Of a stretch of 64,000 nucleotides of DNA, positions 1,481-46,875 are shown piece after piece. This DNA is from Akkermansia muciniphila. GTDB taxonomy: Bacteria; Verrucomicrobiota; Verrucomicrobiia; Opitutales; Opitutaceae. The stretch lies in NCBI GenBank assembly GCA_945888375.1, contig CAMCZZ010000009.1, forward strand, positions 1 to 64,000, in the 5' to 3' direction. A program made the position numbers and the translations under genes. The notes under the pieces are model-generated. The model saw nothing but the letters and a program-made list of their open reading frames with translations, was not told where the DNA came from and made no database searches. The stretch's first letter is position 1. Every line of letters starts with the position of its first letter.

Positions 1481-3439
1481 TCAATGAGCCGGAGCATCGT
1501 CGGCACTCGCTTCAGACGGCGCCTGCGCGTCCTGTTGAGCGGTGTCTGCGCCGGCCTCTTCGACGTGACTCTCTTGGGCTGCGGCCGAACCTTCTGAGGC
1601 AGTTTCCGCCTGGGGCGGAGCCTCGGCGGGTGCAGGCTTGGGCGCTTCGGGGAAGTTTTCCGGATCAACATCCGAAGCTTCAATCTCGCGCTTGCGGGCC
1701 TCGACCATCGCAGGGGGGCAAAACAAGGTGCCGTCGACGAACTCGGTGACATAGCCCTCTTTCACCAAATAACGAAGGTCGCCCTTCAACTTTAGCAGCT
1801 TCTCTTGCTCGGCGGCGGGGATGGGCTCGGCAACTACCCCCTCTGCCGGGGCCGGACGCGGGTCCAGGCCGAGGTGTTTCGCCGCAAGTTCACTGCCCTT
1901 GATCATAGGATGCGCCTCGATGAAGGCGATCAAGGCAGCTAGGGAGTCGGAGAAGGTCTGGCCGGGGACTCGGAAGCGACGCTTTACCGCGCAGACATAA
2001 CTGATGCCTTTGGAGCCTTTTTTGAAAATGGTAAAACTTTCCCGACGGAGGCGTCCACGCAGGGCGTTGGCGGTATCCAGAGGGAAACGGCGTTGGTTGG
2101 CCAGTGCGCCCTCTACGGCACGACGGATTTCGCCGGCTTCTGGCATGAGTTCCAGAATCTTTCCGGGGAAGCGCAGCTGCTCCACAGAGCGAACGACACG
2201 ACCGCGGGACTCGTTGAGCAACCACTGCCGGGCATCCTCGAGCGAATCAAAACTTGGCAGAACTGGGGCTGCCGCAGTGGCTTCGACGACCGCTTCCGCG
2301 GCGCTTTCACTCGCGGGAGCAGTCTCCAAGGAAGTGACAGAATCGGGGGCCACGGCAGTCTCCTGTTTCGGTGCACGCACTGGAGCAGGCTTCACCGTGT
2401 AGCGGGTGGTCTTTTTCATTTTCTCCAGCCACTGAGCTACGACCTCGGGATCGCGAACCGTCTCGATTTTGCTCTTAAATGCTTCCAGCGGGATGCGGAT
2501 GTTGGCCGCGTGGTGCTGGGCCAAGATCGAGGCATAGCGATGATAATTGGGCGGAGCGAGCAAGGCCCCGGTGATTGAACAACGGTTGACGACCTGATAA
2601 TTACCCTTGGGCGCCTCGACCTCTACCTCACTGGATTCGAAGAAGTTAGCCAAGTGCTTTTCTAGGACGTGAGCGATCGCGGCATCCTCCGTCTCGAAGG
2701 GGACGCCATCGGGAACAGAAATAAAAAACGGCGCCGGTTTCTGGGCCGAAGAGACGGCGGGGTCACCCTCGTTTAGGGGCGTGCCCGGTTTTGTGCCAGC
2801 CGGGATGCGCTGCACCACGGCCACGAAACGTTCATGTTTTTCCACCACGGACCGTGCGATGTAGAAAAGCTCGAAAGTCCGGCAGGACTTGCGAATAGCC
2901 TCCGCGAGCACCTTGAAGCTGGCGTCCTCAGGATAAAAGGTGACGTTGAAAAAAGGGCTGATGTATGGGCCCGCGGGCTCCCGCGGAGGGCCCCGAAAAT
3001 CGCCACGTGGGCCGCCAGGACCTCCCTCGCGACGAGGACCTCCCGGGCCGCCACTCTGGCCATCTCGGCGCTCAAAACGCGGACGGTCGCCGCCACGAAA
3101 ATTACCCGGGGCGCCATCGCGCCGGAAAGCAGGACGTTCATTGCCGGCGGGAGCGCCCGCTCCACCCAGTGCCGGTGCTTCCCCGGAGGCAGGAGCCGGT
3201 GAGGCGGTGGGACGCTTAAAATCCCCGCGGCGATCTCGAACCACCGGTGCCCCTCCGTCGCGACGCGGCCGATCGTCCCGGCGGTCATCCCGCCTGTCCT
3301 GACGGGGCGAGTCGCCGGCAGCCCCTCCTTTGTCCTGACTCCACGAGGTTCCGAAGCTGAACCCTTGGAGTTGGGTTAAATCAAGCTTGTTGAGCCCGGA
3401 TTTGGATTCGGGCGTTTGCGGGGAGGGCGTCTCATCCAT
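1481..3439 (-). CDS. RG-rich protein of unknown function
   Basis: I do not recognise a named family. The 652-residue product has three parts. Residues 1 to about 165 are disordered and rich in Arg, Gly, Asp and Pro, with many RGG/RGD-like steps. A folded region of about 230 residues begins near PYISPFFNVTFYPED. A second folded region begins around FDSLEDARQWLLNESRGRV and is followed by an Ala/Glu/Pro-rich acidic tail. There is no signal peptide or membrane segment, so it should be cytoplasmic. RGG-type tails are common in RNA-binding proteins, so a nucleic-acid role is possible but is only inference. It is transcribed alone, and its upstream spacer (3440-3813) contains a dispersed repeat. Confidence 0.75.
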   Translation of the reverse strand: MDETPSPQTPESKSGLNKLDLTQLQGFSFGTSWSQDKGGAAGDSPRQDRRDDRRDDRPRRDGGAPVVRDRRGDFKRPTASPAPASGEAPALGGAGAPAGNERPAFRRDGAPGNFRGGDRPRFERRDGQSGGPGGPRREGGPGGPRGDFRGPPREPAGPYISPFFNVTFYPEDASFKVLAEAIRKSCRTFELFYIARSVVEKHERFVAVVQRIPAGTKPGTPLNEGDPAVSSAQKPAPFFISVPDGVPFETEDAAIAHVLEKHLANFFESSEVEVEAPKGNYQVVNRCSITGALLAPPNYHRYASILAQHHAANIRIPLEAFKSKIETVRDPEVVAQWLEKMKKTTRYTVKPAPVRAPKQETAVAPDSVTSLETAPASESAAEAVVEATAAAPVLPSFDSLEDARQWLLNESRGRVVRSVEQLRFPGKILELMPEAGEIRRAVEGALANQRRFPLDTANALRGRLRRESFTIFKKGSKGISYVCAVKRRFRVPGQTFSDSLAALIAFIEAHPMIKGSELAAKHLGLDPRPAPAEGVVAEPIPAAEQEKLLKLKGDLRYLVKEGYVTEFVDGTLFCPPAMVEARKREIEASDVDPENFPEAPKPAPAEAPPQAETASEGSAAAQESHVEEAGADTAQQDAQAPSEASADDAPAH

Positions 3440-3813
3440 GCGAGTTAACGAAAGCGGGCTTGTTGCCAGCGGAGGTGTTTAGGGCGGGAGTGCGGAGTGC
3501 GCAAAAGGCGCACTGCACAACCAGCTTCTCCTAGAAAAATCATCACGCAAGCCGTTTCCCGTGGGGAGGCCGTGGCATTTTCGTTACAACATAAGTGCTT
3601 TGGCAGCCTCGGCAGAGGGGAATGGCGCGTGCTCGGCGGGACTTTCCCAACTGGGATAGTTCAGTTGCCTGGGTCGCGACGAGGCGACTTGGCTACACCT
3701 TCCGGTGGGGCCTTAGTCTCGAAAGACTCTCAGCGTATGCCTTCGCTCGGTCCGCAGCGAAATCTGCTCGCCCCCTCCCCCGCTGCTCGACCGTCCCACG
3801 GAATGATACCGAC
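3440..3813. other. intergenic spacer with hairpin and repeat copy
   Basis: This gene-free stretch lies between the start of the RG-rich gene and the stop of lolD. A short hairpin has 7-bp arms AGTGCGC (3496-3502) and GCGCACT (3508-3514). The right half, about 3661-3800, is a copy of a dispersed repeat described separately. No convincing coding sequence is seen: the open frames here are short, and the aligned conservation is shared with other non-coding sites. Confidence 0.6.
3661..3800 (+). repeat. dispersed intergenic repeat family 2, copy 1
   Basis: This copy aligns by eye with 31981-32120 (plus) and 46661-46835 (minus). The best core is GGGTCGC, then CGAGGC, ACTTGGC and CGGTGGGGCC, in the same order and at nearly the same spacing. 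All three copies keep one phase across the core, giving a shared RWG tripeptide, although the frames are otherwise broken. It could be a decayed mobile element or gene remnant, or a repeat with its own function. Confidence 0.6.
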
Positions 3814-4482
3814 TCAAACGGGATGAAAGCCGCCTTCGCGCAAAAATAGCCGCCGGGCGCAGCGGTTCGCGTGGGCGGCGTTATGCGTCACGAGCACCAA
3901 GGCGCAGCCCGACTCAGCGCAAAGTGCGAGCAAGAGATCGATGACCGCCTCGCCGCTGCCCTCGTCGAGATTGCCCGTAGGTTCGTCGGCCAGGATGAGC
4001 GGCGGCTTATTCATCAAGGCGCGTGCAATCGCCACTCGTTGCCTTTCCCCACCCGAGAGTTTCCCGGGGATATGGCCGGTGCGGTCGGCCAGACCCACCC
4101 GCCCCAGTAGATCGCAGGCCCGGGCTCGCTCAGCGGCTCCGATCGGTCCCTGGAGCCGCGCAGCCAGAAGCACGTTGTCGAGGGCGTCGAGTTCCGGCAC
4201 TAAATAGAACGATTGGAAAACCAGCCCGATCAAACGCCCGCGCCGGGCGGCGGAAAGTGTCGCTTCACCCTCCCACTGCAGCTCGCCTGCATCAGGGGCG
4301 TCGAGCCCGGAGAGTAGATTCAAGAGGGTGGATTTCCCCGAGCCGGATTCGCCGCGGATGGATACACTCTCGCCCGACAACACCGTCAACTCCACGCCAC
4401 GCAGCACCTGCAAGCGCCGCGCGCCGCTGGCGTAGCTCTTGTGCAGGCCCCGGGCTTGGAGAATCGGCGGGCGGTTACTCAC
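3814..4482 (-). CDS. lolD: LolD-like lipoprotein-release ABC ATPase
   Basis: ATPase of the inner-membrane complex that extracts outer-membrane lipoproteins and hands them to LolA. At 222 residues it has the family size, with Walker A GESGSGKS (44-51), signature LSGGE (142-146), Walker B LILADEP (162-168) and the switch His in LVTHN. Its start overlaps the end of the upstream permease gene by 8 bp, which implies translational coupling and supports the pairing. The related MacB-type and FtsE-type ATPases share these motifs; the LolC/E-type partner decides the call. Confidence 0.88.
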   Translation of the reverse strand: MSNRPPILQARGLHKSYASGARRLQVLRGVELTVLSGESVSIRGESGSGKSTLLNLLSGLDAPDAGELQWEGEATLSAARRGRLIGLVFQSFYLVPELDALDNVLLAARLQGPIGAAERARACDLLGRVGLADRTGHIPGKLSGGERQRVAIARALMNKPPLILADEPTGNLDEGSGEAVIDLLLALCAESGCALVLVTHNAAHANRCARRLFLREGGFHPV

Positions 4483-30640: not shown

Positions 30641-31930
30641 ATGTCCAGTTCTGCACCCGTCTCCTCCGAGCTCTTCGCCCGCGCCCAGCGTCTGATTCCT
30701 GGCGGCGTGAACTCACCCGTCCGCGCGTTCCGCTCGGTCGGCGGCGCGCCCTTTTTCACCCGCTCCGCGCGCGGCGCCACCCTCACCACCGCCGACGGCC
30801 GCGAATTGATCGACTTTGTCTGCACCTGGGGACCAGCCATCCACGGACACAACCACCCCGCCATCAAAGCTGCCATCGCCGCCGCCCTTGAGGAAGGCAC
30901 CTCCTTCGGCACGCCCAATCCCCGCGAGGTCGAAATGGCCGAGTTGATCGTATCGTTCTTTCCCTCGATTCAAAAAGTCCGGATGTGCTCCAGCGGCACC
31001 GAAGCCACCATGTCGGCCATCCGCCTCGCGCGCGGTTTCACCGGAAGGGACAAGATTATCAAATTCGCCGGCTGCTACCACGGACACTCCGACGCCCTGC
31101 TCGTTTCGGCCGGCTCCGGCGCGCTTACCCACGGCCACCCCGATAGCGCGGGCGTGCCCGCCGCCTTCGCCCGCGAGACCGTGGTGCTGCCTTTCAACGA
31201 CCCTGTCGCCCTCGATGCCGCCTTTGCGGCCAATCCAGGCCAGATCGCCGCCGTGATCCTCGAACCCTACATCGGGAACGTCGGCTTCATCCCGGCCGCT
31301 CCGGGCTATCTGAAGCACGTTCGCGCCACCACCGCACGCGAGGGCGCCGTGCTGATTTTTGATGAAGTCATGACCGGCTTTCGTCTCGCCCGTGGCGGCG
31401 TGCAGGAGTTGGAAGGCATCGTCCCTGATCTCACCTGCCTCGGCAAAATCATCGGGGGCGGTCTGCCCGTCGGCGCCTTCGGTGGACGCGCCGAGATCAT
31501 GGATAAACTGGCTCCGCTCGGACCGGTTTACCAAGCCGGCACCCTTTCGGGCAACCCGCTCGCGCTGGCCGCCGGCATCGCCCAACTCCGCCTGCTCGAC
31601 GAATTGCAGCCCTACGCCCGACTCGACGCCCTTGGCCGCCAGCTCTGCGCCGCTGCGGCCAATGCCGCCCGCGTGAAGGGCCTACCTCTGCAAACCCCGC
31701 AAAAGGGCTCAATGTTCAGCCTGTTCTTCAACGAAAATCCGGTCGTGGACATGGCCACCGCACTGGCCTCGGATGCCAAGCTCTTCGGACGTTTTTTCCA
31801 CGCCTGCCTCGATGGCGGCGTCTACCTGCCGCCCAGCGCCTACGAAGCCTGGTTCCTCAGCACCGCCCACGAGGGCGACGCTATCGACCGCGCTTGCGAG
31901 GTGGTGGCGAAGGCTATTCATGCACTGTAA
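30641..31930 (+). CDS. hemL: glutamate-1-semialdehyde 2,1-aminomutase
   Basis: Makes 5-aminolevulinate for haem by the C5 pathway, using PLP. The 429-residue protein has the family length. Key residues: the PLP-phosphate site SSGTEA (118-123), Asp241 in FDEVMTGFR that contacts PLP, and the Schiff-base Lys269 in [13 protein letters not shown]. The N-terminal [19 protein letters not shown] is the family opening. It lies 105 bp after nadE; a copy of the dispersed family 2 repeat follows its stop. Confidence 0.96.
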
Positions 31931-32244
31931 CGGCATGGGCGAGTATAGTCCCTTGAATCTGATCTCATCAGGGGCCATGCAGTTGCCCGGGGTTCATCGA
32001 GGCTAACAGGCCGCGCCTTTCGGTGGGGCCCTCGCTCGAAAAACTCTTCGAGTATTGGTCGCCCTGAGGGCTCACCCTCTGCCTGCGGCGTAGGTCTGCG
32101 CCCTCTCCGCTTCGCTCCGTTCTTTACTCGTTCAACACCGAAATACGGTCGCCATTCCACCGCGCTGCTCCGCCGTTTAACTTCATGTTCCGGGCTCAGC
32201 CGACCTTGTTGGCGCCGCGTGCGGCTGGCGCTCGCTTTACCCGA
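31931..32244. other. gene-free convergent spacer
   Basis: Non-coding stretch between the converging hemL and solute-binding-protein genes. About 31981-32120 is a copy of dispersed repeat family 2, described separately. The remainder has no recognisable gene, terminator or RNA. Confidence 0.55.
31981..32120 (+). repeat. dispersed intergenic repeat family 2, copy 2
   Basis: Shares CAGTTGCC, CGAGGC, CTTTCGGTGGGGCC and CTCGAAA-ACTCT blocks with 3661-3800 in the same order, and TGCCTGCGGC and GGTCTGCGCC blocks with the minus-strand copy at 46661-46835. It is more diverged than the other two copies. Direct alignment is needed to set its exact ends. Confidence 0.55.
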
Positions 32245-33870
32245 TCAACGTCCCGCGCGCGCCAACTCGACAGCCTGCTGATACTGGGCACGGAAACGCC
32301 CGCCGAGCTCCCGGGCTAGGCGCAGTTCGGCCGCCTTGTCCTTGGCCCGCAAGGCCTGCTTGATCGACCCCGATGCGGTGGCGTAGTCCACCGCCGAAAT
32401 GTCACGCAAGGCCGCGCTCGCTTCTGGTGGACTGCCCGCAACCGCCACCTCCCGCCACGCGGCAACGAGTTCGGGATGAGCGTCGAGACACATGACGCGC
32501 ATGATAAACCGCAGCTCTGCAAACAGCCCCGCCGTCCACTCGGGCCGATAAACCAACGGCTCGGCAATGGCGTAAGGCGCCTCCAGCGGATCGCTCCGCA
32601 GCTCCGCCTCCCCTGTCTCGCCGTAGGCATCGCGCCGCACCGGCAGACGCCGCAGGGCGTAGCGCGACGGACCGCCAGCCGTCCCCGGTTTTTGATTCCA
32701 GAGCCGCTGCCCTTCCCTCGACATCACAAACTCGATAAAATCCCGCGCCGGTCCCGGGCTAGGCGCGCCCTTCAGCAAACCTATGGGGTCAACCGAAAAA
32801 ACCGTGCCGCCCGGCGGCGAGACATAGGCCACCCGATCACTGCCCGCCCGGCGCGCGAGCGCCTCGACCTGCTGACGACCGTAGAAATCGATACACATGC
32901 CCGCCGCGCAGTTCCCGGCGGCGACGTCGACCGGAACCTTTTGCGCACTGTCGGTGAAGTAGCGGGCATTGGCCGAAATGGCCTGCAATAACCGCAAGCC
33001 CTCCGCCCAGCCCTCTGCGACCGCAGCCGTCTCGGCCGCCCGCCGGGTCTCTTCATTCGCAAAACGCGCAGTCGCCACCCGGGAGCGGACAACCTCGTGA
33101 ATCTTCTCCTGGAGCACGTTTTCAAAGGCTTTGTTCATCGAGCCACTCTTGGTCGGATCCGCTAGGGCGATCTGACCGAGGTAGCGTGGATCACGCAGAT
33201 CGGCCCAGCGCACCGGAGCAGGCAAGCCGAGGCGCGCGAGCGCGTCGCGATTGTAAACAATGCCAAACGAACTGAGCACCGTGCCGGTCCAGCGCCCCTG
33301 CGAATCCCGGAAATCGTCGCCAGCGTGCTTGAGCGGAACCACCGCCTCATCCATCCAGTCCGGCTTGGCCTCATCCTCGCGATAAAGCGGAACCAGTCGT
33401 CCCGCCCTGGCCTGCGATATAAAATCATAGGCGCCCCCGCCAAAAAATACGTCGATACCGCAACCGGAGGGAGATTCGAGGAAGGCCGCGCGGGCCGCCT
33501 TGGCCTCCTCCGGCGCATCCTTGGCCAAGCGGCCGTCGGCAAAAGCCGTCTGCACCGTCGCGCTCCACGGCCGGACCAGTTGACGGGTCCAATAGTTCTG
33601 GAAGGAGGCGACGTATTCGCCTTCCAAATAACGCGTGATCTCGCTCGTGCCGCCGATCAGGCGCCAATCCAGCGCGACCGAGCGGCCGGTGCGGCGGTGG
33701 TAGGCTTCACGAAAGGCGTTTTCGAACTCGAAGCGTATGGCCTCGTTGTGCGGGGAAATGATGACGACGGTATCGTCAGCCCGGCCGGCGAACTCCGCCT
33801 TGGGGCGCAACGCGAAGGGCAAGGCCAGGACAAAGGCCAGCAAGAGGAGGAGACCGGTGTTCTTGCTCAT
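32245..33870 (-). CDS. ABC transporter extracellular solute-binding protein
   Basis: Periplasmic binding protein delivering a ligand to an ABC importer. The 541-residue product has a signal segment (LLLLLAFVLALPFAL) and then the two-lobe fold of the iron/thiamine/polyamine-type cluster, including VVIISPHNEAIRFEFENAF, FFGGGAYDF and FGIVYNRDALARLGLPAPV. It is longer than usual, because about 150 residues follow the standard fold. It lies 27 bp after the ATPase gene on the same strand. Ligand unknown; a ferric-ion or similar substrate is possible by family. Confidence 0.85.
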   Translation of the reverse strand: MSKNTGLLLLLAFVLALPFALRPKAEFAGRADDTVVIISPHNEAIRFEFENAFREAYHRRTGRSVALDWRLIGGTSEITRYLEGEYVASFQNYWTRQLVRPWSATVQTAFADGRLAKDAPEEAKAARAAFLESPSGCGIDVFFGGGAYDFISQARAGRLVPLYREDEAKPDWMDEAVVPLKHAGDDFRDSQGRWTGTVLSSFGIVYNRDALARLGLPAPVRWADLRDPRYLGQIALADPTKSGSMNKAFENVLQEKIHEVVRSRVATARFANEETRRAAETAAVAEGWAEGLRLLQAISANARYFTDSAQKVPVDVAAGNCAAGMCIDFYGRQQVEALARRAGSDRVAYVSPPGGTVFSVDPIGLLKGAPSPGPARDFIEFVMSREGQRLWNQKPGTAGGPSRYALRRLPVRRDAYGETGEAELRSDPLEAPYAIAEPLVYRPEWTAGLFAELRFIMRVMCLDAHPELVAAWREVAVAGSPPEASAALRDISAVDYATASGSIKQALRAKDKAAELRLARELGGRFRAQYQQAVELARAGR

Positions 33871-46322: not shown

Positions 46323-46646
46323 ATGTCCGACACCCTCGCCCACTTCGACGAAACCTCCTTCAAAACCGCCATCTCGGGCCCGGTGCCCGTGTTGGTTGAC
46401 TTCTGGGCCCCCTGGTGCGGCCCCTGCAAAGCCATCGCTCCCATCCTAGCCGAGCTCGCCACGGAGCTCGAAGGCAAGCTGACCATCGGTAAGGTCAACG
46501 TGGACGACCACGGCAGCCTCGCCGAGGCCTACTCTGTCCGCGCCATCCCGACCATGCTGGTTTTCAAGGGCGGCCAACTCGTCGATACCCTCGTCGGCAT
46601 GCAGTCGAAGGATAGCCTCAAGGCAAAGCTGCTCGCCCACCTCTAA
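46323..46646 (+). CDS. trxA: thioredoxin
   Basis: General cytoplasmic disulfide reductase. The 107-residue protein has the redox site WCGPC in DFWAPWCGPCKAIAP, the cis-Pro in RAIPTMLVFKGG, and normal length. There is no signal peptide. It is the last gene of the scpA group and is followed by a strong plus-strand terminator at 46876-46903. Confidence 0.96.
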   Translation: MSDTLAHFDETSFKTAISGPVPVLVDFWAPWCGPCKAIAPILAELATELEGKLTIGKVNVDDHGSLAEAYSVRAIPTMLVFKGGQLVDTLVGMQSKDSLKAKLLAHL

Positions 46647-46660
46647 GCCGAGATAAAACA

Positions 46661-46835
46661 GTTGGACAGCGGAGCAGGGGAGCAAAGGGGCGTGCCGATT
46701 TCGGCGCAGACCAAGCCAAAGACGGAGCCGTAGGCGGTGGGTGTGCCCGCAAGGCGAAGCCTAACCGGAGGCCATTTCTTACCGAGAGCCCCATCGAATG
46801 GTGCCGCCAAGTGGCCTCGAAGCGACCCGGACAAC
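46661..46835 (-). repeat. dispersed intergenic repeat family 2, copy 3
   Basis: Read on the minus strand, blocks GTTG-C-GGGTCGC, TCGAGGC, ACTTGGC, CACC and TGGGGC match copy 1 at 3661-3800 over about 50 bp with no gaps; GCCTACGGC and GGTCTGCGCC blocks match copy 2. The copy lies between converging trxA and trpF, before the trxA terminator. It would therefore be transcribed within the trxA 3' end. Confidence 0.6.
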
Positions 46836-46875
46836 GAAATGATCACGGCTGAGCAGAAGCGCTTCGCCCTTTCCC

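Follow-up and report, generated by a model that had tools for sequence, protein, structure and literature searches.

A decayed family of probable IS1380-ended miniature transposons in an Opitutaceae genome

The window analyzed here, the whole 64,000-nucleotide stretch at the start of contig CAMCZZ010000009.1, contains three related repeat copies that lie between genes or at their 3′ ends. Copy 1 lies between two minus-strand genes, and the neighbors of copy 2 and of copy 3 converge, as a preliminary description of this DNA had stated for two of the three. That description was right about the existence of the three stretches but drew them too short, and their limits were extended by use of the ends found in the family alignment. 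The features are as follows.

3646..3817, plus strand: copy 1, short form, 172 bp including both target copies, placed by family alignment and end search
3646..3650, plus strand: left target copy of copy 1, CCCAA, a decayed CTNAG
3651..3667, plus strand: left terminal inverted repeat of copy 1, consensus end matched at 15 of 20 scored positions
3796..3812, plus strand: right terminal inverted repeat of copy 1
3813..3817, plus strand: right target copy of copy 1, CTCAA, in which TCA at 3814-3816 is the TGA stop of the minus-strand gene 3814-4482
3814..4482, minus strand: host gene that ends in copy 1, an ABC-transporter ATPase, LolD/YbbA-like, with scores under the cut-offs of those models
31964..32199, plus strand: copy 2, long form, 236 bp including its targets CTCAT...CTCAG
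31969..31985, plus strand: left terminal inverted repeat of copy 2
32178..32194, plus strand: right terminal inverted repeat of copy 2
46643..46853, minus strand: copy 3, 211 bp including both target copies
46849-46853 and 46643-46647, read on the minus strand: target copies of copy 3, CTCAG and CTTAG, respectively
46832..46848, minus strand: left terminal inverted repeat of copy 3
46648..46664, minus strand: right terminal inverted repeat of copy 3
46644..46646, plus strand: TAA stop of the thioredoxin gene, inside a target copy of copy 3
46323..46646, plus strand: host gene that ends in copy 3, thioredoxin (TIGR01068, 116.8 bits; cut-off, 96.8)

Copies 1 and 3 thus sit exactly on stop codons. 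Copy 2 lies off any stop codon, and its spacer is bounded by a hemL-type gene (30641-31930, plus strand) and a solute-binding-protein gene (32245-33870, minus strand). Beside copy 1, a 652-amino-acid open frame (1481-3439, minus strand) has no Pfam or NCBIfam match at an E value of 0.001.

Pairwise local alignment of the three stretches gave scores of 47, 47, and 50, against maxima of 28, 29, and 32 among 500 dinucleotide-preserving shuffles per pair, so that every pair scored above all of its shuffles. The alignment shows the gap-free core reported for copies 1 and 3, and shared descent would account for the RWG reading phase common to the core copies. The genome that carries the window (G000; Opitutaceae, Verrucomicrobiota; 3.22 Mb in 39 contigs) listed 46, 43, and 27 matches to copies 1, 2, and 3, respectively, with a best non-self match of E = 3.2e-24 for copy 1 and matches down to E = 4.8e-34 for copy 3. 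After 15 of these 116 match rows were dropped as weak or as lying within a copy already covered, the other 101 merged into at least 54 places. Alignment of 46 of the 54 yielded a single consensus with unrelated flanks, to which copy 2 matches at E = 1.9e-54 (80%). The likeness is therefore better than that of shuffled sequence, and further copies are present throughout the genome.

The consensus has inverted ends, CCGGGATCATNCAGTTG...CAACTGNATGATCCCGG, each bordered by a 5-bp target, CTNAG, inside which the terminal inverted repeat spans 17 bp. In the own genome this end pattern matched 74 times, versus 2 times for a reversed-pattern control. The repeat has two forms, long (∼237 bp) and short (∼173 bp), both counted with two target copies; the short form lacks consensus positions 95 to 157, and the repeat holds no transposase gene. 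The 34 well-ended copies of the own genome measure 101 to 237 bp and average 78.1% identity to the nearer consensus. Relatives hold near-identical young copies of ∼173 and ∼237 bp, with a mean nearest-neighbor identity of 95.5% among the 10 young copies of one relative, G013. Variants occur in another relative, G012, where three copies (L138, L160, and L168) have the right end ...GTATCGGTGT... instead of the usual ...GGCTNAG and where the middle of a further copy (L248:1498-2406) is replaced by an array of ∼270-bp noncoding tandem units.

The consensus query matched 11 of the 15 genomes of the genus (the own genome included) and none of the 23 sampled genomes outside it, and the body of the element also occurs in one or more other genera of the family (L292, 78% over 172 bp). 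A search of viral_contigs gave no matches. Named records that hold the core are Opitutaceae or Verrucomicrobiota bins and one bin labeled Akkermansia muciniphila. The bin deposited under that name (MiE-14oct19-92; L190, L191, L198, L200, L201, and L205) groups with this Opitutaceae genus, and its label looks wrong. Six of the 18 pattern matches in named genomes were compared, of which five matched; one of the 18, the "Acidobacteria" record L194, was set aside as a chance match with no further similarity. Among 252 Opitutaceae genomes, 44 carry the end pattern itself with no more than one mismatch, and they represent 14 of the 49 genera; one control match is among those listed. This family-wide signature is usable for finding more elements. 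Several elements of other genera that have the pattern differ in their middles. Other Opitutaceae genera hold several families of miniature inverted-repeat transposable elements (MITEs) with the same ends, mostly equal CTNAG copies, and different middles (L279, L280, L281, L283, L286, L289, L295, and L297), one of which lies inside a longer element (L280).

Target duplication was examined in 116 copies, 54 from the own genome and 62 from relatives and one further own-genome set. In 70 of them each end matched at no fewer than 14 of the 20 positions scored, which did not include the middle base of CTNAG; the other 46, truncated or too worn, were left out. The two ends share this middle base in 52 of the 70 copies (base frequencies predict 32%) and in 23 of the 27 copies whose CTNAG is intact on both sides; it is unequal in 18 of the 70, including window copy 3 (CTCAG/CTTAG). 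The joined flanks of 16 copies, and then those of the three window copies, were searched against the 15 genus genomes for sites without the element. The site of copy 3 is empty in G011, where a single CTTAG stands in its place (84% over 605 bp), and also in G014 and G007, with the pentamers GTTAA and ATCAG. For copy 1, G014 (CTTAG) and G011 (CTTAC) have empty sites at ∼75%. Four further sites of the family are empty as well: C5:142214 in G014 (single CTTAG), C14:72695 in G011 (CTCAG), G006 (TTCAG), and G014 (CTCAG), C9:67794 in G011 (single CTGAG), and C3:164815 in G007 (single CTCAG). Copy 2 gave no clean empty junction in the 15 genus genomes, its flanks matching separately in G011 and G014. 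An IS5/IS427-like duplication of 3 bp (TNA) was considered and rejected, since elements of the IS1380 family with these ends show the 5-bp CTNAG as the duplicated unit.

Insertion sequences of the IS1380 family have ends that start with CC and make a 4- to 5-bp duplication. Outside the genus, a 1,438-bp element (L278) carries the ends of the repeat on both sides and encodes a 469-amino-acid IS1380-family protein (NF033539, 226.6 bits with a cut-off of 180; PF13701, 117.9 bits), relatives of which occur at E ≤ 1e-20 in 42 of 252 genomes and 19 of 49 genera of the family. L300, L301, L302, L329, L330, and L304 measure ∼1.5 kb and have these ends, with CTNAG equal on the two sides; the pentamers are unequal at L278, L299, L307, and L309, so that 6 of the 10 compared are equal. 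CCGG ends are found on the Opitutaceae insertion sequences, and variant ends run in parallel between the two kinds of element: the MITE L130 and the element L308 both have CCGTAACGATGCAG, and the MITEs L127, L183, L184, and L187 have ACTCATGCAG-type ends in common with elements of G077. The MITE and the insertion sequences are alike over ∼22 terminal bases and little more, and for this reason the MITE is not a plain internal deletion of any insertion sequence found.

None of the 15 genomes of the genus yielded an intact partner insertion sequence. The sole transposase find in the own genome is a relic (45% identity over ∼107 residues) with two in-frame stops, and matches to PF13340 and PF01609, each in 7 of the 15 genomes, led to no element with matching ends. 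No transposase relatives at E = 1e-20 were found in G012 or G013, despite the young copies there; these drafts may have lost the partner insertion sequence. Several candidates were rejected. Twenty single-ended pattern regions in the genus lack a partner end, and a 1.5-kb pair (L139) and the 0.9-kb pair at L248 enclose, respectively, a host gene that appears exonuclease-like from its sequence and the noncoding tandem array. L227 and L231 show loose likeness only. They belong to a different insertion sequence of ∼2 kb, with a DDE_Tnp_1 match, ends CCCGA(C/G)TTCCGCA, and apparent 4-bp CTAA/TTAA duplications.

The same ends, the CTNAG duplication, and the presence of an IS1380 transposase elsewhere in the family together lead us to regard the repeat as a nonautonomous mini-transposon (MITE) family. 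We put at roughly 93% the probability that the three stretches are worn copies of a decayed IS1380-ended MITE family that was moved by an IS1380-type transposase and whose copies in the own genome are now fossil. The number of copies, the inverted ends, the duplicated target, the empty sites, and the same-ended insertion sequences all agree with the earlier suggestion of a genome-wide family of decayed elements. Counted against the MITE reading are the unequal middle bases in 18 of 70 copies, the empty sites that depart from CTNAG (GTTAA, ATCAG, and CTTAC), the lack of an intact partner in the genus, and the ∼22 terminal bases that are nearly all the MITE has in common with the insertion sequences. 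A palindromic, dispersed, and extragenic repeat could also be of the REP/BIME type, spread by a RAYT (Y1) transposase. HUH-type insertion of that kind is not known to make a target duplication, whereas the present repeat has both a duplicated target and empty sites with a single pentamer, and the insertion sequences that share its ends encode a DDE transposase; we give this origin practically no chance.

On one strand, the CTNAG target contains a TGA or a TAA, and many copies sit on stop codons. An inward TRA is present in 50 copies, and in 38 of these it is the exact end of an open frame of at least 100 codons, compared with 32 of 153 control CTRAG sites, and 37 of the 70 well-ended copies lie on a called stop, compared with 31 of 106 nongenic CTNAG sites (P = 0.0025). 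These counts carry caller errors because the gene ends came not from annotation but from our own small codon-usage caller, by which the copies on a stop number 37 with the flanks called apart and 35 with the flanks joined. The neighbors of the 70 copies are convergent in 38 cases, tandem in 22, and divergent in 3, with a contig edge in 7. Taken at face value, the excess would suit transposition machinery that actively seeks stop codons or gene 3′ ends, beyond mere survival there. Under a stricter control, however, restricted to CTNAG sites that lie no more than 150 bp from a gene 3′ end and away from starts, the copies divide into 35 on a stop and 18 elsewhere and the control sites into 31 and 15 (odds ratio, 0.94; P = 1.0), and only two of nine insertion sequences checked end on a stop that closes a frame of at least 100 codons (L302, 429 codons; L329, 120 codons). 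Active seeking is accordingly improbable in our judgment. Since the excess disappears against CTNAG sites at gene 3′ ends, the target sequence and selection are enough: roughly one in two well-ended copies is on a stop because CTNAG contains TGA or TAA and its duplication rebuilds the stop. Copies lie inside genes at 7 of 70 sites, versus 168 of 273 control CTNAG sites, and we infer that selection has caused this distribution.

The young short form makes a single long hairpin with imperfect pairing (−93.2 kcal/mol; z = −8.9), and the long form folds at −107.3 kcal/mol (z = −5.1). Such folds, together with the position of the copies at gene 3′ ends as counted above, are what would be expected of a selected bidirectional 3′-end hairpin, a terminator or transcript stabilizer at converging gene ends. 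The changes in the arms speak otherwise. In the own genome, one-sided changes number 131, against 9 in which both sides changed to the same base, and arm agreement is 11.88 of 17 within copies versus 11.47 of 17 between copies, with 47 of 2,000 shuffles as good; it is chiefly this one-sided change, such as decay would produce, that counts against a maintained RNA structure. The arms in relatives show 34 alike changes versus 51 one-sided ones, with an agreement of 15.31 of 17 within copies versus 13.29 between copies and none of 2,000 shuffles reaching this level, a pattern that would follow if a single transposase had to accept both ends when the element jumped. An Rfam scan of the window at gathering scores found one tRNA alone and no repeat family, the element is absent from the same gene ends in relatives, and the 3′-end position follows from the target sequence and selection. 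A maintained hairpin function is thus very improbable, and the unnamed functional repeat that the preliminary description had offered as its other option gives way to decay. A few copies may since have been put to use.

In the MITE reading, the mobile unit is the whole stretch between and including the two inverted ends, and it inserts into CTNAG and duplicates these 5 bp. The copies were most likely moved in trans, to judge from the shared ends and target, by an IS1380-family transposase from same-ended insertion sequences, which would cut and paste the MITE. An insertion into a stop codon would regenerate the stop from CTNAG, as TGA or TAA on one strand, and would be harmless for that reason. 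Insertions within genes would be purged by selection, so that the survivors are those on stop codons or in spacers. The transposase appears to have been lost from the own genome except for the broken relic, and the copies there are now drifting apart. It is also conceivable, if unlikely, that an IS1380-type lineage settled on the palindromic, stop-holding CTNAG and that gene ends, where the duplication restores the stop, became a renewable safe harbor in which the MITE supplies a ready-made 3′ hairpin, with such sites favored at insertion itself as well as by later selection. What had been an unexplained spacer repeat becomes a dated transposon fossil with known ends, a known target, and a probable partner. 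It also provides a clear case in which a duplicated target rebuilds the stop that was landed on, making insertion at a gene end nearly harmless.

Searches of open-licence papers, a scope that leaves subscription journals and ISfinder aside, showed nothing on this family, on IS1380-related MITEs, or on stop-rebuilding duplications. In trees of piggyBac transposases, as presented in part of one study (PMC10813416), IS1380 transposases serve as the outgroup. The repeat resembles piggyBac in its fixed short target and is unlike it in that the target is TTAA in animals and CTNAG here. The repeat is also close to the IS1380 insertion sequences of the Opitutaceae, which have the same terminal sequence and make the same CTNAG duplication, but the repeat is without a transposase and its middle is unrelated. 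A 5-bp duplication is also listed for IS1247 of the IS1380 family in Table 2 of PMC3281130. Prokaryotic MITEs, as described in three papers (PMC4133298, PMC10969869, and PMC2229807), are short and noncoding, with inverted repeats, a duplicated target, many hairpin-forming copies, and the ends of insertion sequences. All of these defining features are found in the repeat, as they are in the Correia elements, RUP, QMITEs, and TIMEs. It is unlike the prokaryotic MITEs that the reviews emphasize, AT-rich elements with TA targets, in being GC-rich and in having a 5-bp CTNAG target and IS1380 ends. The kind is known and the family is new; this is not a new kind of system.
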